From: a virus
Length of the DNA stretch: 28,835 bases
Reading direction: 5' to 3' (one strand)
Virus record (IMG/VR): IMGVR_UViG_3300013772_000011
Location: 20,722 to 49,556 of that record
Position numbers and translations under genes: made by a program. The notes below the pieces were generated by a model, which saw only the letters and a list, made by a program, of their open reading frames with translations, was not told where the DNA came from and ran no database searches. This document shows positions 5,725 through 22,092 of this stretch, piece by piece (position 1 is the stretch's first letter; the number at the start of each line of letters is the position of its first letter).

Positions 5725-7572
5725 TTGAACCCAATTTACGGTCTATCATTAATCGCTGACGGAGAAGGCGGATTCGTCGGGCAAAAAGGCTATGGCGGCA
5801 GCACCTTCAACATGCCGATGGGCGGTGTGTTCACCGATTCCTTCCAGAGAAATCGCGCCCCCAATTCACGACAACTCATCGCCGAACTGGTTGGAATCGC
5901 GTTCTCCTGCGCCTGCTTGAATGCCAATCTCATCGCCAGCCTGACGCCGCGGCTGTACATGAAGACGCGGCGGGGACAAGCCAAAACCCGGTACGTTCAG
6001 GCTTATGAGCGGAACAAGGGATACTCCCCGACGACCCCAGTTTCCGCCAAGCAACTGACCTACCTGTCACAGCATTCACGCGGAGTCCGAAACAAAGGGG
6101 TTGCGACGATCCCCGGCTACGCGCTGGCCAGCGACACGATGGTGGAAGAGGTGGTCGATCATCCGCTGTTGGACCTGCTGAACGAACCTGAAACTACGAC
6201 CGATGACCTGGGCCTTTCCGGCTTCGATCATCGCTGGGCAACACAGCTCTACATGGAAGGGATCGGACGGTCCTACTGGCTGATCGAGCGACAGAACCTT
6301 TCTGATGGGAGCAGCGTTCCAAAGCACCTGTGGTTGTTGCAAGGCCAGTACATCAGCGAAGTGAAAGATGAAAAGGGGATCAAGTTCCTGTCCCACTATG
6401 AATACGCTGGGAAGAAGTACGGTCCTGAAGACATCATCAAGCTTCACATTCCTGATCTGGCCCACCTCCGCACCGGCGGGTTCTCGCCCACGATGGCGGC
6501 GTATGAGAAGTTGCAACTCGTGCGCAAGGGTGATGCTCAGATCGGGTCCATCCTCGACAACATGGGATTCCCCGGCCTGATCGCCACTGCCAAGCAATCG
6601 GAAATGGGCGCATCATTCGGTCCTGCTGAAGCCAAGCGGATGCAGTCGGCGCTCAACGGCTTGCTCAAACAAGGTGGCTACGGTGGGACGGTGGTGTTGC
6701 CGGAAGCCCTCGAACTGATCTTCCCGCACTGGAAGCCGAATGAGACTTTGACGCTGGAAAGGTATCAGCAATATAAGACGGACATTTTAAACAATTATGA
6801 CATTCCGTCATCGGTTCTTGAACGGAATGACGCGAATCTGGCCAGCGCCAAAACCGGCGACTACGCACACGCCAAGTATGCCGGTGTTCCCCGCGCCACC
6901 CGGTATGAGTGGGCGATCAACTCTCGATTGGTTCCGCTGTACGACAATGACAAGCGGTTTTTTGTAGCCTTCGACAACGTCATTCCCGACGATGAACTGT
7001 TCGCGTTTGAGCAGGTGAAAACGGCTGGCCAGATGGGCGCGTTCGAAGTCAATGAGATTCGCCAAGCCGCTGGCTTCCCTGATCTCGAAGGTGATCTTGG
7101 CAAGAGCCGGTACATCAACGGAAATCTCATCGGAGATGATGGCGTGCCGATCATGGCGGTGCAGCAGGGACCGTCGCCGGGAACCACCAACAACCCGCCG
7201 CCCGGCGATGCCGAGAAGAAGTATTTCATCCTCAACGCCGAACTTGATGCGCGGCTCCGTCGTCTCGAATCCCAATCCGCCGTCTCCCCGGTCTCCGTGT
7301 CGATTCCATCAGCCCCCGAAAGCGTTGAAGGTGAAGTGGTTGGGCACCTGTCCAAGACGGTTCTGGAACTGGTGCGGACGGTGGAGAAGATTGCCAAGAA
7401 GCCGCGAGCGGCATTGCCTGCGCCTGAGCCAGTGATTGAAGTGCCGCCAGAGCCTGAAGTAGTTGTGACTGCCGTTGGCCGGGCCAAGGCGGCATTGATA
7501 CAGGCTGGTTACTCCGAAGATGAAATCGCGGCGAAGACGGTTGTGAATAGACGTGAGCACTGCGAACTTTAA
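5725..7572 (+). CDS. Portal protein (HK97 family)
   Basis: A 615-residue protein with hallmarks of HK97-type portals, the dodecameric ring at one capsid vertex through which DNA is packaged. Residues 52-75 (AFSCACLNANLIASLTPRLY) match the N-terminal helix that reads V..C....A..IA..P. Later come MEGIGRSYWLIER, the HIPDLAHLRTGGFSPTMAAYE segment, YDIPSSVLERND with the TGDYAHAKY loop, and NEIRQAAGFPDLEGDLGKSRY near the crown. The last 120 residues are a Pro/Val/Glu-rich tail longer than a minimal portal. The TTG start at 5725 lies 11 nt after a copy of the C/T-rich motif and no Shine-Dalgarno is visible. The protease and capsid genes follow in canonical order. Confidence 0.93.
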   Translation: MNPIYGLSLIADGEGGFVGQKGYGGSTFNMPMGGVFTDSFQRNRAPNSRQLIAELVGIAFSCACLNANLIASLTPRLYMKTRRGQAKTRYVQAYERNKGYSPTTPVSAKQLTYLSQHSRGVRNKGVATIPGYALASDTMVEEVVDHPLLDLLNEPETTTDDLGLSGFDHRWATQLYMEGIGRSYWLIERQNLSDGSSVPKHLWLLQGQYISEVKDEKGIKFLSHYEYAGKKYGPEDIIKLHIPDLAHLRTGGFSPTMAAYEKLQLVRKGDAQIGSILDNMGFPGLIATAKQSEMGASFGPAEAKRMQSALNGLLKQGGYGGTVVLPEALELIFPHWKPNETLTLERYQQYKTDILNNYDIPSSVLERNDANLASAKTGDYAHAKYAGVPRATRYEWAINSRLVPLYDNDKRFFVAFDNVIPDDELFAFEQVKTAGQMGAFEVNEIRQAAGFPDLEGDLGKSRYINGNLIGDDGVPIMAVQQGPSPGTTNNPPPGDAEKKYFILNAELDARLRRLESQSAVSPVSVSIPSAPESVEGEVVGHLSKTVLELVRTVEKIAKKPRAALPAPEPVIEVPPEPEVVVTAVGRAKAALIQAGYSEDEIAAKTVVNRREHCEL

Positions 7573-7594: not shown

Positions 7595-9040
7595 ATGAGT
7601 CTAAGCATGAATCTCAAGCGATTCGCAAACGTGGTGGAGCACGCCGGTAGTGGACTGAAAATGCCGGAAGACGCAGCGCGGACCATTGAAGGTCTGTCCA
7701 AGAACCTTCCTGCCGAATGCAGTTACCGCCGCCGCAGCATGACACCCGACGAATTCTCGCTTTCCGCCGGGGAGCGGTCGGACCTGAGCATCATCTCTAC
7801 ATGGTCTCCCGATCGCGACAGGGAAGTGGTTCTCTCAAAAGGACTCGACCGCAATGGGTACAACGGAGTGGTGCCATTCGCGCATCGCTACAACGAATTG
7901 CCGGTTGGCAAATGCGTCCGCATGGACCCGGTGCGCGATGGTGCTGCGATGCTGGCAAAGACGTTCTATCCTGAGAAGCCTGCCGATTGGGGGAATGCAA
8001 CGTGGATGCCCAGCGCCGTGCTGCACCTGATGCAAAATGGTGTCTGTACTGGAAAGAGTGTTGGATTCCTCCCGCTGGAAATCCGCGCCGCCACTCCGCA
8101 GGAAAAGTCGGCACATCCCGATTGGGAAGATTGTCCGATCATCGCGCGGGCGGCACTCATTGAATACAGTGTCGTGCCCGTCCCGTGTCAAGCCGAGGCC
8201 GAGATGATGGCCGTGTCCAAGGCGTTCACCGCTGGCGTTATCGACAAGAGCGTGGCCGACTTCCTAACCGAGTCACTCGCCCCTAAAGCGATCATCGAAC
8301 CACCGCCGACCTGCTACAAGTGCAAGGGCGCAATGGCCTCCACAAAACCAGAGTGCTTCCGCTGCGAGAAGTGCGGCATCGAATACTCCACCAAATCAGA
8401 AACTCCCATCGTGGTTGACGATAAAACCATGACCGACACCAACACCGCCCTCCAAACCGATGAAGACGATATGCCGAACTGCCCCACCTGCAATAGCTCC
8501 GCCAACGTCAGCAAGAAGGGTGACGGCGGAATCTACACCTGCTCGACGTGCGGGAACGATTTCACGCCCGAGACCGACCCTGATATGACCAAATCGGTTA
8601 AGGCGATGAAGCTCAACGGGCCGTGCATCTCGACCGCCAAGCGGCTGATCGCCGAGGGCAACGTCGATCACGGAGAATGGGTCGCGCCGGTCGGAAGCGA
8701 GCGTAAGCCGGAAGAATGCCTTCTGGTCGATCTCGACGCCCCTGCCGCCGCCCAATGCAAGTATCCCATCATCAAGGGTGGCCAACTGTATTCCCGCGCC
8801 GTGAGTAACGCCGCCGCCCGTGCCGAGCAAAACGGTGAAGCCGATGTCGCCGCCACGGCAAAGAACCTGTCTGACCTAATCGAGAAGCACGCCGGAAAGA
8901 GCCTGCTGAATGAGCCGTTCCGAAGCCCCGAATCCATCGTGAAATCCATCGAACTGCATCGCGCCGCCAATGAGAAACAGGCCCGCGAAGATGCCGAGCA
9001 GGCGATGGCAGATGTATTAACGCTTGCAAGGGGATCGTAA
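7595..9040 (+). CDS. Prohead protease with fused zinc-ribbon C-terminus
   Basis: A 481-residue protein, about twice the usual length for an HK97 prohead protease. Residues 64-205 carry the protease domain: STWSPDRDREVV, FAHRY with His97 as probable nucleophile-activating residue, CTGKSVGFLP with Ser155 as probable nucleophile, and the conserved ALIEYSVVPVP strand. The enzyme cleaves the capsid delta domain during maturation. After residue 235 come two paired-cysteine clusters (C240, C243, C257, C260 and C296, C299, C316, C319), each like a zinc ribbon. Then follows a 150-residue domain with KYPIIKGGQLYSRAVSNAAARAEQ. That extension may scaffold the prohead or come from a second gene. It lies between portal and capsid genes as expected. 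Confidence 0.88.
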   Translation: MSLSMNLKRFANVVEHAGSGLKMPEDAARTIEGLSKNLPAECSYRRRSMTPDEFSLSAGERSDLSIISTWSPDRDREVVLSKGLDRNGYNGVVPFAHRYNELPVGKCVRMDPVRDGAAMLAKTFYPEKPADWGNATWMPSAVLHLMQNGVCTGKSVGFLPLEIRAATPQEKSAHPDWEDCPIIARAALIEYSVVPVPCQAEAEMMAVSKAFTAGVIDKSVADFLTESLAPKAIIEPPPTCYKCKGAMASTKPECFRCEKCGIEYSTKSETPIVVDDKTMTDTNTALQTDEDDMPNCPTCNSSANVSKKGDGGIYTCSTCGNDFTPETDPDMTKSVKAMKLNGPCISTAKRLIAEGNVDHGEWVAPVGSERKPEECLLVDLDAPAAAQCKYPIIKGGQLYSRAVSNAAARAEQNGEADVAATAKNLSDLIEKHAGKSLLNEPFRSPESIVKSIELHRAANEKQAREDAEQAMADVLTLARGS

Positions 9041-9224: not shown

Positions 9225-9235
9225 AGAAGAAATTA

Positions 9236-10705
9236 ATGTTTGTCGAATTCCTCGTGGCCGCTAAAGGCCACAAAATCGGCGACACCGTCGAATACGAAGA
9301 CGTTGTTGCCAAGGGTCTGATTGAATTGGACCTGGTGAAAGAGGGCAAGAAGCCCGCTGTAGTCGAAAGCGCCGCCGCCGCCGCCGCGACAGGGCTTCAA
9401 ACCGCGATGGTCAAGGCCGTCTCTGATGGCTTTGCCGAAATGGCCAAGAAGTTCGTCGCTCAGCCCGCCGTTAATCGCGGTGGGTTGGAGATCGCGGACA
9501 ACGCGGACATTCAGGTGGAGAACCTGGTCGTTCACGGACGGCTCAAGAACTTCCCGAATGATGCGGCCGGACTCCGTGAGGCTTATCGATTCGGCATTTA
9601 CTGCCTGGGCGTTTATCACAACGACCCGCGATCGGGCGTCGATTCGAAAGAGAGGTCCAGCTTTGCCGTTCAGCGGTGCAAGCAATACGGAATCCCCCTT
9701 ACGTGGAAAGAGTGGGAGGACACCAAGCGCGTCGTCAAGACGCTGACTGATACCAACAACACGTCTGCGGGATTCTTGGTTCCCGAGGAATTCCAGAACA
9801 GCATGATCCTGCTCCGCGAGAAGTACGGAGTATTTCGCCAGAACGCCCAGGTCGTTCCGATGGCCGGCGATCAAAAACTGATCCCTCGCCAGCGCGGCGC
9901 GGCACAAGCCTACTTCGTCGGCGAAGGTGCTGCTGGCACCGCCACAGATCCCACTTTTGACCTCGTGAAGCTCGGCACGAAAAAGCTGATGACGCTGACT
10001 TATTTCAGCACCGAGATCGGCGAGGATGCGGTCATTAGTATTGGCGACAAGCTGGCTGGAGACATCGCCTACGCCTTCGCCAATAGGGAAGACCAATGCG
10101 GCTTCCTTGGCGACGCCACGAGCACCTACGGCGGTATTCTCGGACTTAGCCAATCCCTCAAAAACATCTCCGCCACTCCGACCTCGACCATCGCGGACGT
10201 GCTGGGAATCTACCAGACTTCGCACAACTCCTACGCGACGATCACACTGGCCGACTTCAACCAGGTTGTCGGTCTGCTCCCTGAGTTCGCGGATACGCCC
10301 AACGCGAAATGGTACATGCACCGGACGGTATGGGGTTCCGTCGCGCAACGATTGGCTACTGCCGCCGGCGGGAACCCGGTCTCGGCCATCCAAGATGGCG
10401 CACGCGAGAAGATGTTCCTCGGTTACCCCGTCATCATCTCGCAGGTGATGCCGAAGACCTATGCCGCGAATCAAATTGTCGCCTACCTAGGAGATCTTTC
10501 CGAGGCTGCGATGATCGGCGACCGTCGCCACACGACGATTGCGCTGAGCGATCAGTACCTGTTCAATCAGGATGTAATCGCTGTTCGCGGAACTGAGCGA
10601 TTTGACATCAATGTGCATGACGTTGGCGAGATGACAACCGGCACCCCCAAAGATGCAGCGATGGGATTGACGGCAGGGCCGATGGTTGCCCTCATGCTCA
10701 CCTAA
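9236..10705 (+). CDS. Major capsid protein (HK97 fold)
   Basis: A 489-residue protein, the main shell subunit. Residues 1-150 would be the delta or scaffold domain, with an Ala-rich helical stretch (ESAAAAAATGLQTAMVKAV). The HK97 core begins near residue 174 with TSAGFLVPEEFQNSMILLREKYGVFR, followed by IPRQRGAAQAYFVGEGAA, LTYFSTEIGEDA, AFANREDQCGFLGD and YGGILGL. The P-loop/A-domain segment contains KWYMHRTVWGS and the E-loop-like VISQVMPKTYAANQIVAYLGDLSEAAMIGDRR. These are the usual landmarks of phage capsid family HK97. It directly follows the protease, which probably removes the N-terminal domain. A copy of the C/T-rich motif precedes the ATG. Confidence 0.93.
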   Translation: MFVEFLVAAKGHKIGDTVEYEDVVAKGLIELDLVKEGKKPAVVESAAAAAATGLQTAMVKAVSDGFAEMAKKFVAQPAVNRGGLEIADNADIQVENLVVHGRLKNFPNDAAGLREAYRFGIYCLGVYHNDPRSGVDSKERSSFAVQRCKQYGIPLTWKEWEDTKRVVKTLTDTNNTSAGFLVPEEFQNSMILLREKYGVFRQNAQVVPMAGDQKLIPRQRGAAQAYFVGEGAAGTATDPTFDLVKLGTKKLMTLTYFSTEIGEDAVISIGDKLAGDIAYAFANREDQCGFLGDATSTYGGILGLSQSLKNISATPTSTIADVLGIYQTSHNSYATITLADFNQVVGLLPEFADTPNAKWYMHRTVWGSVAQRLATAAGGNPVSAIQDGAREKMFLGYPVIISQVMPKTYAANQIVAYLGDLSEAAMIGDRRHTTIALSDQYLFNQDVIAVRGTERFDINVHDVGEMTTGTPKDAAMGLTAGPMVALMLT

Positions 10706-10781: not shown

Positions 10782-11222
10782 GTGATTAATGACCAATCTG
10801 TAAAAGTTTACCCCATCCTCATCACGGCGCTGACCAATGCCGCGACGGGAACGTTCGGGACTTTTGATTGTTCCGGGCACCAATATGCCCGGATTGACCT
10901 CACGCTAAGCGCGACCAACGCCGTAAGTAACGTACCCACAACGGCGAAAATTCAGGAGTGCGATACGACTGTATCCACTTCGTTCGCGGATGTTTCTGGT
11001 GGTTCGATGACCAGTGCATTCACCAATGGCCTCACCACCACCACCCTGACTGACGTTCTAACTTGGTGCGTGGACCTTCGCCCGCGCAAAAGATATTTGC
11101 GCGTCCTATGCGCGGTTTTAACGTCACAAACCGTTGCCGGAATCGTCACTCTTTCGCGCTCCGGCCAAGCGGAAATAAGCACTGCCGCCGCCAATAACGT
11201 TTCCGCGATGTTGGTTCTGTAA
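10782..11222 (+). CDS. Small head-associated candidate protein
   Basis: A 146-residue protein with a GTG start. It is beta-like and rich in Thr/Ser/Ala/Val, with GTFGTFDCSGHQYARIDLTLSATNAV, a central CDTTVSTSF and LRPRKRYLRVLCAVLTSQTVAGIVTLSRSGQAE. This pattern, a short domain with a YARIDL strand then a KRYLRV strand, is common among small proteins encoded just after the capsid gene, where decoration and head-stabilising proteins sit. No catalytic motif is seen. It is followed by a strong terminator-like hairpin, which suggests that capsid and this gene form the end of one late transcript. Decoration protein is an inference. Confidence 0.6.
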   Translation: MINDQSVKVYPILITALTNAATGTFGTFDCSGHQYARIDLTLSATNAVSNVPTTAKIQECDTTVSTSFADVSGGSMTSAFTNGLTTTTLTDVLTWCVDLRPRKRYLRVLCAVLTSQTVAGIVTLSRSGQAEISTAAANNVSAMLVL

Positions 11223-11272: not shown

Positions 11273-11371
11273 TTCCCGTCAAAACGCAAAACAGCATGAC
11301 CGAGCTATGCGGCTCGTGTGCTTCGTTGCATCTTCGACCTTCCCACTCCAGTTCAATGCCACCCTTTATCC

Positions 11372-11377
11372 AGGAGG
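11372..11377 (+). promoter_or_regulatory. Shine-Dalgarno AGGAGG deciding a TTG start
   Basis: A perfect AGGAGG lies 5 nt before the TTG at 11383, which is in frame with the long methyltransferase-glycosyltransferase ORF. An ATG upstream at 11296 and one at 11398 have no such site, so TTG 11383 is preferred. Confidence 0.65.
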
Positions 11378-11382
11378 ATTCC

Positions 11383-13257
11383 TTGGACGGCTCAACCATG
11401 ATTTCCGACCCCGCTACCGCCTTAAAACCGATCGATTTGACCCCGAACGATCTACCCGTCCCTGACTTCGGCGGACGGTTCTTCAACGTCAAGCCCGACT
11501 CGTGGGCCGAGCACGCGCGGAACATCTACAGCCAAAACGGGGAAGATGGCATCGTTGCTGAAATCTTCCGTCGCATCGGCACCACGAATAAGTTCTGCTT
11601 TGAAGCTGGCGCTGCGGACGGTCGATGGATGAGCAACACCCGCAAACTGATTGATGAAGGGTGGTCTGCCGTGCTGGTGGAGTCGGATCCTGATCGACTT
11701 GAAGATTTGCGGAAGCTCGAAAGCGATAAAGTGACCATCGCTCACCGGCACATCACCGACGAAGGACCGGACTCGATCGACAACGTGTTGAAGGAGAGTG
11801 GCTGCCCCGACGATCCTGATCTTGGGGTCATCGACGTGGACGGGCAGGATTACTACATCTTCAACTCGCTGATTCGCGTGCGCCCGCGAGTGCTGATCGT
11901 GGAGTTCGCCCCCGAAGCGGCCCCCAATTACATCCCCGAGCGTGGTGGCCCTGGTCAAGCTGGCTGGGAGGCGATGTATGTGCTGGGTAAGTCCAAGGGA
12001 TATCACGCGGTTGCCTACACCCGGTTCAACTTCATCTTCGTGCGGTTTGAAGATTACGCCGCTGCCGTGGCCGCAACAGACATCACGCTCAAGTTGAACC
12101 TCGGTGGTGGCACTGGACCCGAACTGCCAGGGTATGAAGTGGTGGACCGCAAGAACGGCAGCGAAGTCTATCCACTGAGTTATCCCAATGGGTGCGCTGA
12201 TGAGGTTCGTGCCTCACACGTTCTCGAACACCTGCCCCACAACACGACGCTCGCCGCGGTCGAGGATTGGGTGCGCGTGCTCAAGCCGGGCGGCAAGCTC
12301 AAGATCGCGGTCCCTGATCTAAACTTCATCATCGGCCACCTTCAGGCCGGCAACCGCGAACTGCCCCTCGAAGGCTATTTGATGGGCGGGCAAACCGATG
12401 AAAATGACTTCCATCATGCCGTATTCACTGAAAACAAGCTCCGCAACATCATGTACGGGCTGGGACTCCGAAGAATCCGAAGGTGGGACAGTGAGATACA
12501 GGACTGTGCTTCTCTGCCCGTCTCCCTGAACCTCGAAGGAACCAAGCCCGCGAACGTCACCGTCAAAGGTGTCGAGGCGATGATGTCTGTTCCGCGGTAT
12601 GGTGCCACTGCCGCGTTTGAATGTATCGGACAGTCTCTACGCTCGGCTGGGAACATCCCGCTCCGCGTGGCTTATGGTGCTTATTGGGATGAAGCACTGA
12701 CAAGCGCCATTTTGCAAACGCTTGCTGAAGGCAAAGCGGAGTGGATTCTATTTATCGACTTCGATTCGGTGTTCTGCGCCGACGATGTGAAGGAACTGTA
12801 CCGGCTCGCGACAACGACTCCCGGCCTCGATGCGGTGTGCCCTGTGCAAATGGGCCGCTCATTCAACAAAGCCTTGATCGTGATGAAGCCCGACGAAAAC
12901 GGGAAGTACAGCGATAAGGTGGCGGCGGATTTGTTCGATCAGGATCTCATGGAGATCCAAAGCGGGCATTTCGGCTGTACACTGGTTCGCGCCGACGCTA
13001 TCCGCAAAATGAGTAAGCCGTGGTTCATCGCTAAGCCGAGCGATGAGGGCGCGTGGGCCGGGGAAGGTTATATATCGGCAGACGTGGCGTTTTGGCGCAA
13101 GTTTACGGCTGAGGGGTTCAAGCTTTTCAGCGCGAATCAGGTGCCAATTGGTCATTTGCAAGAGCAACTTTTGTGGGCCGATCGTAATTTGGGGTGTGTG
13201 ACGCAGGAAATTTCCGACTATCGAAAGTCCGGCGCGCCGCCCGAAACGTGGAGATAA
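11383..13257 (+). CDS. Three-domain FkbM-like methyltransferase / methyltransferase / glycosyltransferase
   Basis: A 624-residue protein. Residues about 45-220 resemble FkbM-type SAM methyltransferases: IYSQNGEDGIV, FCFEAGAADGR, VLVESDP, GVIDVDGQDYYIF and RPRVLIVEF. Residues about 236-385 form a second methyltransferase-like domain (LKLNLGGGTG, RASHVLEHL, LKPGGKLKIAVPDL). Residues about 398-600 look like a GT-A glycosyltransferase with WILFIDFDS as the metal-binding DxD, then SGHFGCTLVRADAI and an ISADVAFWRKF acidic site. Together they could build and methylate a glycan on virion proteins or the host surface. A paralogue of the last two domains is at 20857. The gene has its own strong Shine-Dalgarno after a terminator, so it may be expressed separately from head genes. 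The substrate is unknown. Confidence 0.8.
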   Translation: MDGSTMISDPATALKPIDLTPNDLPVPDFGGRFFNVKPDSWAEHARNIYSQNGEDGIVAEIFRRIGTTNKFCFEAGAADGRWMSNTRKLIDEGWSAVLVESDPDRLEDLRKLESDKVTIAHRHITDEGPDSIDNVLKESGCPDDPDLGVIDVDGQDYYIFNSLIRVRPRVLIVEFAPEAAPNYIPERGGPGQAGWEAMYVLGKSKGYHAVAYTRFNFIFVRFEDYAAAVAATDITLKLNLGGGTGPELPGYEVVDRKNGSEVYPLSYPNGCADEVRASHVLEHLPHNTTLAAVEDWVRVLKPGGKLKIAVPDLNFIIGHLQAGNRELPLEGYLMGGQTDENDFHHAVFTENKLRNIMYGLGLRRIRRWDSEIQDCASLPVSLNLEGTKPANVTVKGVEAMMSVPRYGATAAFECIGQSLRSAGNIPLRVAYGAYWDEALTSAILQTLAEGKAEWILFIDFDSVFCADDVKELYRLATTTPGLDAVCPVQMGRSFNKALIVMKPDENGKYSDKVAADLFDQDLMEIQSGHFGCTLVRADAIRKMSKPWFIAKPSDEGAWAGEGYISADVAFWRKFTAEGFKLFSANQVPIGHLQEQLLWADRNLGCVTQEISDYRKSGAPPETWR

Positions 13258-13439: not shown

Positions 13440-13543
13440 CCCGCCGCCAAGCCCTCCGCTCCCTCATCTCCGCCGTAGCCGCGTGCGTGGTCGCGCCATT
13501 CGCCAAGGCGCCGCATCTATCTCAACGATCTCAGAGCAAGTGA
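13436..13543 (+). pseudogene. Truncated Tat-leader gene at the CRISPR boundary
   Basis: The ATG overlaps the upstream TGA. The 35 codons begin MTRRQALRSLISAV and include ACVVAPFAKAP, closely similar in layout to the leader of the 193-residue gene at 846 (RRNFLQATG then IALAPFAPKP). The reading frame runs into the first CRISPR repeat at 13510 and stops there at TGA 13541-13543. The signal-like part is intact but the expected mature domain is missing. I infer that the body was lost or displaced when the adjacent module arrived. A genuine 35-residue leader peptide cannot be excluded. No continuation was found after the module. Confidence 0.5.
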
Positions 13544-13618
13544 CCCACGAGTGCGCTGCCAGATACATTGGACCGTTGGAAGCCGCATCTATCTCAACGA
13601 TCTCAGAGCAAGTGACCC
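13510..13618 (-). CRISPR. One-spacer CRISPR mini-array
   Basis: Two perfect 37-bp direct repeats at 13510-13546 and 13582-13618 (each begins GCCGCATC and ends AAGTGACCC) flank a 35-bp unique segment at 13547-13581. Period is 72 bp. Repeat identity is 37 of 37 while flanking bases differ, so the boundaries are sharp. Repeat and spacer lengths match type V arrays. Internal dyad symmetry is weak (CTC/GAG only). No third copy is found at the next period. The array lies downstream of a minus-strand operon with a Cas12/TnpB-like gene, so minus-strand transcription is the simplest reading, but orientation is not proven. No spacer match was noticed elsewhere in the window. Confidence 0.72.
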
Positions 13619-13975: not shown

Positions 13976-14644
13976 TCATCCACGGCGCAGTTCGGATAGC
14001 AACTGCTCAAGTTCGCCAATGGAGAGGAAAAGTTTTTTCCCGGCCAGTTCGATCCAGACGCCGCCGGATCGCCGGTCGATCTTGATATTCTTCCGTTTCA
14101 TGGGTCTTGGGGCCGACGCCGGGCGACCCTCGGCCCATGCAACCTGCGGTTCGAAGGCGCGATCGCCAAGAGGCCCGAATACCTGGTCAACGTGCATGGC
14201 AGTCAGATCGGGAAGTGCAATCCATCGACTGGTAAACGAGTCGCGGTCTAAACGAACTGCAACCTCAACCATTCCCTTATCAATGATCTCGGCCTGCCTC
14301 TCCACCGGAAGAACCTTGAACTTGTTCAGTAACAATTTTCCAGTGGTGTACCCTTGGAATCGATGGAATGCCTCGGGAATGATCTTGCCGTTCGCCACCA
14401 GCATCAGGGTTCTGAATTTCTCGGGATACTTTTCGCGGACGTACTTGGGTTCTTCCCCGTGTTTGAGCATCTCCACCAAAAGAGCGGCGGAACGGCACAC
14501 AATTTCAACCGACCAGCCCATCAGCCGATCCCATTCGGCGTGTCGCTCATCGGGCGTCATGGCCGCGTACTGTTTGGCGTACCCGCTCAAATACGAAGGG
14601 CACATTGCTGGAGTCGCCTTTACTTTAATTGCCTGTGATACCAT
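13976..14644 (-). CDS. Unknown protein coupled to the Cas12-like gene
   Basis: A 222-residue protein starting at ATG 14644, inside the last 20 nt of the upstream effector gene, so the two are probably translationally coupled. A longer reading from 14737 would overlap the effector by over 100 nt and is less likely. It is mainly helical, with MTPDERHAEWDRLMGWSVE, CRSAALLVEMLKHGEE, then a block ANGKIIPEAFHRFQGY and LLLNKFKVLPVERQAEI. A basic linker (PRPMKRKNIKIDRRSGG) precedes a C-terminal beta-hairpin and helix (VWIELAGKKLFLSIGELEQLL). No known family is recognised and no Cas1, Cas2 or nuclease motif is present. Position makes it a candidate accessory factor, perhaps nucleic-acid binding given the basic linker; that is inference. 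Confidence 0.7.
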   Translation of the reverse strand: MVSQAIKVKATPAMCPSYLSGYAKQYAAMTPDERHAEWDRLMGWSVEIVCRSAALLVEMLKHGEEPKYVREKYPEKFRTLMLVANGKIIPEAFHRFQGYTTGKLLLNKFKVLPVERQAEIIDKGMVEVAVRLDRDSFTSRWIALPDLTAMHVDQVFGPLGDRAFEPQVAWAEGRPASAPRPMKRKNIKIDRRSGGVWIELAGKKLFLSIGELEQLLSELRRG

Positions 14645-16058
14645 TGCTCTGCTCCTTATTGATTTCTTCAAGGGCCGCGAACATCGCGAGCCACTGTTCG
14701 AGATTCTTGGCGGTTTCAAATTCCTTCTTTCTGGCATCGGACGTTTTCAGGCTGATCCCGCGTTCGCTCAACTTGTATTCGAGCGTAGACCAGAACTTGA
14801 ACCACGGGAAAGACGACACCCACGAACCGTCGTTATCGTCATAGACGACTTCCGAAGCGCGCAGTCGCAACGCCAGTTCGGCAACTTGAGTGCTTTTTTG
14901 GTGAATGAACGAGTCGATTCGGCGGAATTGGCGGTCGCAGATTCGCTCGCGGGCGGATGCCAGAGAAGGTTCGATGCCAACGCGACGTTCAACCTTCTGA
15001 TCGTCGGACATTCGTTGCAGTCTGCGGCGGTGAGCCGCAACCCATTTGCGAACATGATCCTCATGCGACCATCGCTCATTGGACGTTCGACCCATCATGC
15101 GGGCGCGGAGGAAGCTGGTTGGCCCGGTTCTGACAAGCAATGTGCCGGAAAGAACAAAAGCGTTATCTCGTTTCGGAAGCCAGCAGACAATCGTGGCAAC
15201 AACGCGAGTGCCGTTCTTTTGTCCACCGCCGTCCCTGCCCGTGCCAGACGGCCTATGCGTCGAACCGCACTTGGCTTCTCCAATTCGCGACTCCACCTGA
15301 AGCGCCGAACCATCAATGATCTTGTCCATCGCCGAAAGTTGCCTTGCAAAGTGGGCGCGGTTGCCAAGTGGCAGTGTCCATCTGCGTTCGCCAAGCTTGA
15401 AACTGATGGCGACTCGTCCGTCAGCCATTTTGTCGAGGCTGCAAGATTGCGAAGAGAGTGGGAAAGGCTGCTCTCGATAGGTGGGGAGAGACGTAACGCC
15501 ACGATAGATGTCGAACCGCTTGGCGTTGTAAAGTTCCTTTGTCTTCCGGTCGACTATCGACGCCGTTGTCCCCTTAAGGGTAGGAAACAGCGCTCCGATG
15601 GTGTGATAGAGCACGGTGCTGTCCGTGCATTTGCCGGGCCTGCCGAGAATCCTTGTGATGGCATCATTGATTTGCGACTGCGGCAATGGTCCAAGCCTCG
15701 CCTTGCCGTCAGTCACGACAGGAATCCGTACTGCATCGTCCGCCGCGTAAAGCTGGCATGTAACCCAATTCATCGCCTGGCCACACTGCCGCCAAGCAAT
15801 GTGAAGGGATTTCCACAAGTCGCCCCACTCCCCATCAACGATTCCGCTGACCGGGATGGTGATAGCCGCAACCTTGAAATGGGTCTTCCAGCACTGGTCG
15901 CACCAGACCTTCTCTTGGAATCGACGCCACTTTCGAGGAATTGCAACCTCGCCGGTTTTCGTCTTTCGGCCACTCCCGATGTGCGAAGAGTCGATGTCGC
16001 AAACGAACGGAATGGGTTTTGATTTGGACTTCGACTTAGGTTCTTTGGCGGCAATCAT
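14625..16058 (-). CDS. Cas12/TnpB-like effector, RuvC probably inactive
   Basis: A 477-residue protein. ATG 16058 has AGGCG about 7 nt upstream and is preferred to an in-frame TTG at 16073. The N-terminus is Lys/Ser-rich with a CDQC pair. Residues 285-435 align in order with TnpB: strand VVATIVCWLP, the RuvC-I strand LLVRTG (310 is Arg where TnpB has the catalytic Asp in GVDLG), basic helix HVRKWVAAHRRRLQRM, helix CDRQFRRIDSFIHQKS, RuvC-II strand VVYDDND (Asp407 at the usual Glu), and FPWFKFWSTLEYKLSERGI. Only about 40 residues follow; the CxxC...CxxC ribbon and RuvC-III DxNAA block are absent. Families of this fold bind a guide RNA and DNA. Cleavage by this one is doubtful. A two-repeat array lies beyond the partner gene. 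Exact subtype is not assigned. Confidence 0.78.
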   Translation of the reverse strand: MIAAKEPKSKSKSKPIPFVCDIDSSHIGSGRKTKTGEVAIPRKWRRFQEKVWCDQCWKTHFKVAAITIPVSGIVDGEWGDLWKSLHIAWRQCGQAMNWVTCQLYAADDAVRIPVVTDGKARLGPLPQSQINDAITRILGRPGKCTDSTVLYHTIGALFPTLKGTTASIVDRKTKELYNAKRFDIYRGVTSLPTYREQPFPLSSQSCSLDKMADGRVAISFKLGERRWTLPLGNRAHFARQLSAMDKIIDGSALQVESRIGEAKCGSTHRPSGTGRDGGGQKNGTRVVATIVCWLPKRDNAFVLSGTLLVRTGPTSFLRARMMGRTSNERWSHEDHVRKWVAAHRRRLQRMSDDQKVERRVGIEPSLASARERICDRQFRRIDSFIHQKSTQVAELALRLRASEVVYDDNDGSWVSSFPWFKFWSTLEYKLSERGISLKTSDARKKEFETAKNLEQWLAMFAALEEINKEQSNGITGN

Positions 16059-16162
16059 GCTATCGCCTATCAACGCCGCTCCACACGAGTGTTGCTCGCC
16101 AGAAGGCGTCTCGGTGGAACGACGATGAATTGTGAATTAGTGAACTGACGAGCAACGCCATA

Positions 16163-18514: not shown

Positions 18515-19765
18515 ATGGCTGACTATTTGTGGTCCTCAACGGTTTCAACCGATCCCACCCTTGGGGCAAATTGGACGAAGAGCGATGGCACGACCGGGAC
18601 CGCGCCAACAACGGGCGACACCGCAACCATCGCGTCCATCCCCGGCGTCACCGTCGCGAGCATCGGCGCATCGGGCGGGATGGGCAATCCTCCCACCACG
18701 CTTACCAGCTCAGGCGCGGCTTCGGTAGGCGGCAATCTCGCGCAGAGCACGAATTACTTCTACAAGGTGACGACCCTCTACGCGACCGGGGAATCGGTTC
18801 CCTCCGCCGAGCTGTCCTACGCAACCCCAGCAAGCGGTACCGCAACGAATTTGATTGTGGTGAACTGGGTTGCTCCAGTGGTTCCTGGCGGGACGATTAC
18901 CGGATACAAGATTTACCGCAGCACAACCACGGGCACAGAGCTTTACCTTGCTAGCGTTGGAGTGGTGCTGTCCTACACCGACAATAGTGCGACGGTGCCG
19001 ACGGGACCGATGCCTGGCGCGGCAACGCTTACTTCGCTCACAATTTCGCAAACCTTCTCGGGTACGATTGGCACGGCGGGACTCGGCGGCTACTGGCAAG
19101 TCAATGCAACCACCGTCAACATCGGTGCGCCGGGTGCGGGTATTCCGGGAGTCGGAAGCGCGCAGGTGAAACTCGATAATTCCAGTATCCAAACGACCTG
19201 GAACGTCTTTAATAGCGGGCAAAGCACAACGGGCTACGAACCTGTGATGCTCAAGGGTTCGCACGCATCAAACGTCCTTAACGCGATGGGCGGCACGACG
19301 GGTATTGGCACCACGCAACCGGGCGAACTCACGTCGGCTGGCGGAACAATCACGGTGGCAACCATCAACGCCACCGGCAACGGCACGACGGTCAATGCAG
19401 GGTCAAGCGTAGTGCTGACAACGTTGAACGTCGCTTCCGGCGCGTCCATTCTGACCAACAGCGCCGCGACGACCTGCACGGTGTCTTCCGGCTCGACCGC
19501 CAACCTTAAAGGCTCTGGTGCGGTCACGACCATCAACAACACCGGCACCGTCTATCACAACATCCGCAACGGCGGCACGGGTTCGACCACGATCAATAAC
19601 TTTCCAGGAGGGACGGTCGATTTTTCTGGCCAGCCAGCCGCCGTGACGATCGGGACGATGAATATTTATCCCGGCAGCACTTGCAAGAGAAACCCGGCTA
19701 ATCCATCACATTTGACCATTACCACAAGGGCGCTCGTGGAGTGCGGTTTGGAAACATTTAGCTAG
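18515..19765 (+). CDS. Fibronectin-type-III-like and beta-repeat virion protein
   Basis: A 416-residue protein. Residues about 70-150 read like a fibronectin type III domain (NYFYKVTTLYATGESVPSAELSYAT then GGTITGYKIYRSTTTGTELYLASVG). Its final part, about 250-410, has short Thr/Asn/Gly repeats (TTINNTGTVYHNI and TTINNFPGGTVDF) like a right-handed beta-helix rim, as in phage adhesins. The start, MADYLWSSTVSTDPTLGANW, resembles a small domain of some virion proteins. No signal peptide. It is likely displayed on the virion; receptor binding is inferred. It lies between head closure and gp10-like genes, an unusual place for a fibre. A decoration protein is the alternative. Confidence 0.6.
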   Translation: MADYLWSSTVSTDPTLGANWTKSDGTTGTAPTTGDTATIASIPGVTVASIGASGGMGNPPTTLTSSGAASVGGNLAQSTNYFYKVTTLYATGESVPSAELSYATPASGTATNLIVVNWVAPVVPGGTITGYKIYRSTTTGTELYLASVGVVLSYTDNSATVPTGPMPGAATLTSLTISQTFSGTIGTAGLGGYWQVNATTVNIGAPGAGIPGVGSAQVKLDNSSIQTTWNVFNSGQSTTGYEPVMLKGSHASNVLNAMGGTTGIGTTQPGELTSAGGTITVATINATGNGTTVNAGSSVVLTTLNVASGASILTNSAATTCTVSSGSTANLKGSGAVTTINNTGTVYHNIRNGGTGSTTINNFPGGTVDFSGQPAAVTIGTMNIYPGSTCKRNPANPSHLTITTRALVECGLETFS

Positions 19766-20856: not shown

Positions 20857-22092
20857 ATGCACAAGCAGATTGTCGATATCGACGGCATCGCCACGGCTCC
20901 CCTCAAGATCAACGTCGGCTCGGGCGGTCACGATCTCCCCGGCTACGTCTCGGTGGATCGAAAGACCGGCGGGGAAGCGTACCCCTTGACGCTGCCTGAT
21001 GCGGTGCTGGATGCCGATGGGAATAAGTCGCCGGTGGCGAGTGACAGTGCCGAAGAAATCCGCGCCTCGCATGTTTTGGAACACTTCTCACACAGGCACA
21101 CATTTACCGTGCTCGAAAATTGGGTCAACTGCCTCAAACCCAACGGCATCCTCAAGATCGCCGTACCCGACCTTGACCGCTGCATCGCCGCCCGCGCCGA
21201 AGGAATCCCCATCCCCTTCGAGCAATACCTCATGGGTGGTCACATTGACGACGATGACCAGCACGGCGCGTTGTTCGATGAGCACACCACGATCGACCTG
21301 ATGCGACAGGCGGGGCTCCGCAACATCCGCCGATGGAAATCCGAAATGAAAGACTGTGCCTCATTGCCGATCAGCTTGAACCTTCAAGGTACTAAACGCG
21401 GTGCGGTGGATACGACTGGGACAATCGCCGTGATGTCAGTCCCGCGATTCGGACCCACGGAGACTTACCGATGCGTCATTGAAACGCTCCAGGCGATGAA
21501 TATGCGGTTCGTCCAGATGGGCGGCGCGTTCTGGGACAAGGGGCTGACGCTGGCGTTCGAAGAAGCGTTGAAGATGGGGGCCAATCGCATCCTGACCATC
21601 GACTACGATTCCCTGTTTACCCACCACCACGTCGAAGAATTGATCTGGCTGCTCGACAACTTCGATTACGACGCGGTGTGTCCCGTGCAGGTGCAACGCG
21701 GCAAGAGTCGGATGCTGGTGAACCTGATGGGGCCGGATGGTGAAGCGATGGACAATCCGACCGTGGGGGATTTGGAAGGGGAAGTGGTTCCGTTGATGAG
21801 CGGGCATTTTGGATTGTCAGTTCTGAGCGGCGTAGCCATGCGAAAACTTCCGCATCCATGGTTTGTCCATCGCTTGGACGCGGACGGTCGCCACTCGGAA
21901 ACATCAACCGATGCCGACATCGTTTTTTGGGAACACTTCCGAAAGAGCGGATTCAAGATCGGGATGGCGTCGCACGTCTCAATTGGACATGGTGAGTACG
22001 TCGGCGTGTTCGCAGACCAAGGATTCAGGCCGACGTTTCAGTATTTGTCGGACTGGAGAAACAGTGGTCCACCGGCAAACACGAGAAGGTAA
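20857..22092 (+). CDS. Methyltransferase-glycosyltransferase fusion
   Basis: A 411-residue protein beginning at ATG 20857; the upstream open frame overlaps the gp10-like gene and is not used. Residues 16-180 form a SAM-methyltransferase-like domain (LKINVGSGG, RASHVLEHF, LKPNGILKIAVPDLDR, DCASLPISLNLQGTK). Residues 190-400 form a GT-A-like glycosyltransferase domain with ILTIDYDSLF as the DxD (D249, D251), SGHFGLSVLSGVAM and TDADIVFWEHF. It is a clear paralogue of the last two domains of the 624-residue protein at 11383, including the RASHVLEH and DCASLP blocks, but lacks the FkbM-like domain. It sits one base after the gp10-like gene within the structural operon. A virion or cell-surface glycan substrate is inferred. 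Confidence 0.82.
   Translation: MHKQIVDIDGIATAPLKINVGSGGHDLPGYVSVDRKTGGEAYPLTLPDAVLDADGNKSPVASDSAEEIRASHVLEHFSHRHTFTVLENWVNCLKPNGILKIAVPDLDRCIAARAEGIPIPFEQYLMGGHIDDDDQHGALFDEHTTIDLMRQAGLRNIRRWKSEMKDCASLPISLNLQGTKRGAVDTTGTIAVMSVPRFGPTETYRCVIETLQAMNMRFVQMGGAFWDKGLTLAFEEALKMGANRILTIDYDSLFTHHHVEELIWLLDNFDYDAVCPVQVQRGKSRMLVNLMGPDGEAMDNPTVGDLEGEVVPLMSGHFGLSVLSGVAMRKLPHPWFVHRLDADGRHSETSTDADIVFWEHFRKSGFKIGMASHVSIGHGEYVGVFADQGFRPTFQYLSDWRNSGPPANTRR

Follow-up and report, generated by a model that had tools for sequence, protein, structure and literature searches.

What does an enzyme that joins two methyltransferases and a glycosyltransferase in one chain do among the head genes of a tailed phage? We addressed this question for a locus in the IMG/VR virus record IMGVR_UViG_3300013772_000011 (record length 49,556 bases), of which bases 20722-49556 were analyzed; this stretch of 28,835 nucleotides is called the window below, and all positions refer to it unless stated otherwise. 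A single open reading frame (ORF) at 11383-13257 on the plus strand encodes 624 amino acids comprising an FkbM-like methyltransferase, a class I methyltransferase (MT), and a GT-A glycosyltransferase (GT), and its frame is open from position 11296. The features on which the argument depends are the following.

5725..7572, plus strand: portal protein (PF04860, E 5.9e-23)
7595..9040, plus strand: probably the head maturation protease, judged by its place and a weak match to phrog_80 (head maturation protease, E 1e-4); it also matches phrog_617 (a major head protein by its description, E 4.1e-5)
9236..10705, plus strand: major capsid protein, HK97 type (PF05065, E 3.8e-40)
10782..11222, plus strand: c2, a beta-sandwich protein, candidate decoration protein and candidate acceptor (phrog_5707; profile match to 8cjz_B)
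11372..11377, plus strand: AGGAGG ribosome-binding site of the three-domain gene (read from the sequence; 5 nt ahead of the TTG at 11383)
11383..13257, plus strand: three-domain gene, FkbM-like methyltransferase, class I MT, and GT-A glycosyltransferase, 624 aa (TTG start; own HMMs)
11464..12072, plus strand: FkbM-like methyltransferase domain, about aa 28-230 (own HMM, 5e-94; PF05050 in 9 of 11 alignment members)
12076..12555, plus strand: second class I SAM methyltransferase domain, about aa 232-391 (Methyltransf_11 above cut-off; invariant motifs; own HMM)
12556..13254, plus strand: GT-A glycosyltransferase domain, about aa 392-624, DxD at aa 459-461 (Z 17.8 to STIV A197; invariant DxD)
18515..19765, plus strand: weakly fn3-like protein with 28.8% Ser+Thr, the highest content of the window's called genes (weak fn3 and major-head-protein matches)
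20857..22092, plus strand: second MT-GT gene, 411 aa, 44% identical to the first over MT-GT (own HMMs)

The first domain carries the motifs GAADG (residues 76-80) and DVDGQD (residues 151-156), which we take to be the SAM-binding glycine-rich and acidic motifs, and their G and D residues are kept in the alignment. On its own, this domain scored 22.1 bits against PF05050 (curated cut-off 22.7), and the family was neither listed in the Pfam scan of the whole 624-aa protein nor found by a six-frame search of the whole phage record. The assignment as FkbM-like comes from the alignment of the domain, in which 9 of 11 members, the window's domain counted in, matched PF05050 at E 0.1 or better (best E 4.2e-7). 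The MT domain contains LNLGGGTG (238-245), VVDR (253-256), and ASHVLEHL (277-284) and scored 22.1 bits against Methyltransf_11, over the Pfam cut-off of 21.2. The GT domain scored 14.2 bits against Glycos_transf_2, below the Pfam cut-off of 23.3, and its residues D459, D461, H529, D567, and H591 are invariant across 15 aligned relatives. The highest hydropathy over 19 residues in the three-domain protein is 0.95, that is, there is no membrane-like segment.

The fold of the protein was predicted with 37 aligned rows at pLDDT 84 and a pTM of 0.61, a value at which the mutual arrangement of the three domains in the model is unreliable. The SAM and DxD pockets to which the earlier note had tied its proposal are borne out in part: the GT-A site including the DxD is well modelled, as is the FkbM-like domain; the glycine-rich SAM loop of the second methyltransferase is intact in the sequence and lies in a stretch (residues 233-264) of which 31 residues have pLDDT below 50. 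The first PDB match of the model in Foldseek was A197 of the archaeal virus STIV. In a listing of structure matches that spans residues 303-596 of the protein, the GT part aligned with Mimivirus R699 (Z 17.9, rmsd 3.1, 185 aligned residues, 11% identity), STIV A197 (Z 17.8, rmsd 2.5, 165 aligned residues, 16% identity), and the human lysyl hydroxylase LH3 (Z 17.8, rmsd 3.6, 184 aligned residues, 15% identity). All 50 matches listed are, as classed by title, of glycosyltransferase type or contain such a domain (Z 13.4-17.9). By its model, the third domain has a GT-A fold. The HMMs, the motifs, and this fold together bear out the suggestion, made from the letters of the DNA, that an FkbM-like domain is fused to a second methyltransferase and a DxD glycosyltransferase.

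MT-GT is a conserved family, which rules out a chance ORF: identity within its alignment is 36-42%, and MT is followed by GT within one ORF in 106 of 111 loci (L003-L113, by our own HMMs), some of them clipped by contig ends. The exceptions are L023, L024, and L026 (GT then MT), L025 (MT and GT apart), and L028 (MT only). A scan of IMG/VR with the three-domain protein returned 26 loci and a scan with the MT-GT alignment at least 557 relatives, partial matches among them; in the best 80 of these, the query was matched nearly full length in all 80. Two MT-GT genes occur also in L053, L084, L090, and L093. In the MT-GT tree, the two copies from the window group together in a five-member clade (support 0.956), and FkbM-bearing loci are scattered (12 of 100 tips). 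In the 50,697 annotated phage records, the three-domain protein was matched by its FkbM part only, in two records of Synechococcus phage S-SM2, and the second MT-GT copy had no match; a relative matched 64 of these records, none covering 80% of the query, and the 20 matches listed correspond to the MT part only. The view that such a chain is unusual in a phage thus holds for annotated phages but fails for uncultured ones, where its parts and fusions recur. Among 84,980 bacterial and archaeal species genomes, both MT and GT were matched in 5 of the 80 loci kept; in the remaining 75 the match ends by residue 224 of 391 and so covers MT and at most the start of GT. Four of the five full-length cases (L109-L112) show capsid or c2 upstream, and the fifth (L113) shows neither, yet has other gene clusters common to phage loci. 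With full-length MT-GT in so few genome loci, and with capsid or c2 ahead of four of them, a bacterial gene captured once is not favoured.

The window's own fused frame is known from a single contig. The same fusion, which the earlier note had proposed to look for in other phages, was found in the same domain order in L267 (43% identical across 647 columns) and L336 (37% across 623), ruling out a unique fusion or an assembly error. These two loci come from a scan with the FkbM alignment, in which the best 80 of 267 relatives were examined; its query, like that of the capsid scan described below, was built from cassette-bearing loci, and both scans therefore lean towards such loci. GT was present in 76 of the 80 loci, MT in 75, c2 in 71, and capsid in 69. 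FkbM and GT share one ORF in 12 loci, and ten of these unite all three activities in three domain orders: FkbM-MT-GT (L267 and L336), MT-FkbM-GT (L269, L280, L284, L321, L323, L326, and L328, with L321 and L326 the same in protein sequence), and GT-FkbM-MT (L272). The ORFs of L277 and L313 hold FkbM and GT only. In the other 64 loci, the frames of FkbM and GT, taken from stop to stop, either overlap or are separated by 25 bases or fewer; FkbM leads in 58 of these loci and comes last in 6. GT is absent from L287, L304, and L337, and the MT-FkbM frame of L281 runs off the contig end. Some FkbM loci lie on contigs already in the set (L273, L275, L317, L318, L319, L324, and L338) or are themselves loci already in it (L013, L022, L073, and L259). 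In the first set of loci, FkbM was absent or a separate neighbour of MT-GT, and L037 (5271-7331) holds a three-domain fusion with a different methyltransferase (Methyltransf_9/23) in front of MT-GT. Genes that are fused in several orders across genomes usually act in one pathway. From the ten fusions in three domain orders we infer that the FkbM, MT, and GT activities probably work together.

The position of the gene after the capsid genes, also claimed from the first reading, was confirmed, with one small gene, c2, in between. A terminase-like ORF, read by eye from the sequence, lies upstream of the window in the record, and the succession of portal, protease, capsid, c2, and MT-GT is repeated across loci. 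Of 83 testable MT-GT genes, namely those with at least 2.5 kb of upstream sequence, 79 have a capsid gene no more than 4 kb upstream; the four others are those of L011, L028, and L113 and the window's second copy. The c2 gene lies within 1.5 kb upstream in 89 of 107 MT-GT genes, and its stop is at most 10 nt from the start of the first cassette domain in 25 of 117. The capsids themselves are diverse (28 representatives below 60% identity among 60 aligned). In the capsid-based scan, 76 of 80 loci were examined and the 27 with less than 3 kb behind the capsid were left out; GT was present in 23 of the 49 testable loci (22 also with MT), neither MT nor GT in 26, and c2 in 47. The other four loci of the scan (L044, L049, L058, and L105) all have MT-GT, which puts the cassette share slightly above 23 of 49; seven of the 76 (L191, L201, L202, L205, L208, L209, and L253) lie on contigs already in the set. 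Since c2 is present in 25 of the 26 loci with neither activity, it does not need the cassette. One gene in the slot was scanned from each of five of these 26 loci; two belong to head or tail connector families, and three are without a family. Based on these results, we concluded that the head operon is stable and that the cassette is one of its optional parts.

A 413-aa open frame (9233-10474, minus strand) runs antisense to the capsid gene. Long minus-strand frames of this kind recur in related loci (cluster 11) and probably arise as a side effect of codon usage. Just behind the three-domain gene, two identical 37-nt repeats are separated by a 35-nt spacer (13510-13618), an arrangement of which none is expected by chance. 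A 482-aa ORF near the repeats (14625-16073, minus strand) matched the PADLOC models Cas12u3 (E 2.5e-7) and Cas12f (E 2.9e-6) and no Pfam family at E 0.1; exact matches in IMG/VR were found neither for 24 nt of the spacer nor for 33 nt of the repeat. By sequence, the repeats and the Cas12-like gene are probably a phage-borne mini type V CRISPR-Cas unit. The adjacent 253-aa ORF (13976-14737, minus strand) had no family in PHROGs, Pfam, or PADLOC.

The small protein between capsid and cassette is the main candidate for a target. In the window, c2 has 146 residues, about 25% of them Ser or Thr, and is modelled as a beta-sandwich (pLDDT 83). Among c2 relatives, 53 of 58 match phrog_5707, a PHROG annotated as of unknown function. 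The best PDB match of the c2 profile is a single weak one, 8cjz_B, titled 'Capsid Decoration Protein' (E 0.007); the fold search with the c2 model gave no decisive match, with widespread beta-sandwich matches and 8cjz not among the matches listed. Across 97 loci with near-duplicates removed, the c2 tree requires two changes in MT-GT presence and the capsid tree 10; with shuffled labels, they require at least 17 and at least 16, respectively. The distance correlation with MT-GT is 0.449 for c2, 0.238 for capsid, and 0.25 for portal (46 loci; shuffles at most 0.196). The presence of MT-GT thus follows c2 lineages, and does so better than it follows the capsid; joint recombination of neighbouring genes may underlie this tie.

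The composition of c2 differs with the cassette as well. Among sequences below 60% identity, the Ser+Thr fraction of c2 is 0.223 with the cassette (n=54) and 0.186 without it (n=17). In capsid-matched pairs, the member with the cassette has the higher Ser+Thr in c2 in 21 of 22 cases and in the capsid in 14 of 22; in the same 22 pairs, Asn of c2 is up in 20 and Asp down in 21. Because the label changes only twice, so that there are few independent c2 lineages, and because Asn and Asp shift too, we regard the Ser+Thr difference as weak support for a possible glycosylation of c2. Its use as proof of O-glycosylation was rejected in view of shared ancestry and the Asn/Asp shift. Removal of near-duplicates took the c2 pairs from 22 to 21 of 22, the capsid pairs from 11 to 14 of 22, and the changes on the capsid tree from 9 to 10, and left the two changes on the c2 tree as they were. 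The loci L001 and L002 (from the window's own record), L070 (on the contig of L003), and L008 (a near copy of L003) were left out of the trees, correlations, and composition tests.

We propose, with a probability of roughly 0.55, that the cassette glycosylates a head-surface protein, probably c2, and methylates the sugar. The three-activity enzyme would act in the host cytoplasm on one of the structural proteins of the head, with the GT-A domain moving a sugar from a host-made nucleotide sugar onto the protein. A point against the proposal is that no nucleotide-sugar gene was recognised by eye among the ORFs of at least 150 aa in the first 20 kb of the record. The sugar would most likely be attached to Ser or Thr residues of c2, the small beta-sandwich protein, which would sit on the head surface. 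Both methyltransferase domains would then O-methylate the glycan, leaving it capped or diversified, and the benefit may be shielding of the virion or altered surface contacts. What the sequences and the model show directly are the domains and their motifs, the GT-A fold, a protein free of membrane-like segments, a place behind capsid and c2 that recurs, fusions in three orders, and a presence that follows c2; catalytic activity, c2 as surface protein and acceptor, the sugar as the methylated group, and the benefit go beyond this and are inferred.

The enzymes might instead alter the host surface (LPS, capsule, or another glycan) against superinfecting phages, with the capsid-side place serving as a tolerated moron site. 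Enzymes of the FkbM and GT2 types are common in the gene clusters with which bacteria make surface polysaccharides, and the GT part matches phrog_34859 (E 1.3e-4), a glycosyltransferase in the category 'moron, auxiliary metabolic gene and host takeover'. However, we consider this explanation unlikely, given that the same slot behind capsid and c2 is kept across diverse capsids, that MT-GT presence is tied to c2 lineages, that the protein carries no membrane-like segment, and that full-length MT-GT occurs in just five of the 80 genome loci kept. Of the two roles raised by the earlier note, virion glycan synthesis and modification of the cell surface, the former fits better, given the place in the operon, the missing membrane-like segment, and, as first structure match, a viral enzyme proposed to glycosylate a coat protein (STIV A197).

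Ranking behind a host-surface role, and likewise unlikely, is a cassette that glycosylates a capsid or tail protein and not c2. Capsid genes are close in the great majority of testable cases, as counted above, and the mycobacteriophages Che8 and Rita are reported to carry glycans on their capsids (cited in PMC11256854). The second MT-GT copy lies among later structural genes, 9.7 kb behind c2 and a few genes behind the Ser/Thr-rich protein at 18515-19765, which is a possible substrate of that copy. Against such a target, MT-GT presence follows c2 better than capsid, and capsid Ser+Thr shows no clear difference by cassette (14 of 22 pairs). Under the proposal of c2 glycosylation by the three-domain enzyme, the second copy would act on another structural protein. 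That FkbM and MT methylate protein side chains or another molecule, with the three activities sharing a target or pathway and not one glycan, is improbable: MT-GT does occur without FkbM and with another methyltransferase family in front (L037), but the three fusion orders favour a sugar, as do 5 of 15 relatives weakly like MftM, the mycofactocin oligosaccharide methyltransferase (window's protein, 17.8 bits; cut-off 200).

Known systems share parts of this arrangement. Virion glycosylation has been described in mycobacteriophages such as Che8 (Freeman et al., 2023, as cited in PMC11256854 and PMC13313380); there, phage glycosyltransferases are proposed to put covalent glycans on virion proteins, which resembles what we propose here. 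For Rhodococcus phages of cluster CB, genes for a glycosyltransferase and a methyltransferase were read in PMC13313380 as hinting that the virions are glycosylated. In Maravista, several glycosyltransferase genes lie near the 3' genome end (PMC11256854), in contrast to the fused cassette behind capsid and c2. STIV A197 is an essential GT-A enzyme proposed to glycosylate the virus coat protein, and the coat protein B345 is glycosylated (PMC10551542). The likeness lies in a viral GT-A enzyme with a proposed coat-protein target and a fold matched by the window's GT, whereas A197 is a single domain of an archaeal virus with no methyltransferase attached and shares the low identity given above. Mimivirus R699 and human LH3 have the GT-A fold in common with the window's GT but differ in their partner domains. 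Compared to the PF05050 family, which most alignment members match, the window's FkbM-like domain lies just under the cut-off and is fused to MT-GT. A search of titles and abstract openings, with subscription papers mostly outside it, found none that describes an MT-GT or FkbM-MT-GT cassette downstream of the capsid genes, which is a weak absence. Phage virion glycosylation is thus already known, and the fused cassette behind capsid and c2 would be a new variant of it.

A broader claim, which we hold more tentatively and at somewhat less than even odds, is that this is a widespread, so far undescribed system of uncultured tailed phages: an FkbM-MT-GT set, fused or as neighbouring genes, would accompany one particular capsid decoration protein, build a methyl-capped glycan on it, and shuffle its own domain order. 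The three fusion orders make the functional link between the activities directly testable. If the proposed role of the cassette is true, a likely acceptor has been named, and the protein would be a compact enzyme for protein glycosylation and methylation. To our knowledge, covalent sugars on phage virions are known from few isolates; if the cassette is tied to the capsid and c2 of many uncultured phages, virion glycosylation would be a commoner strategy.
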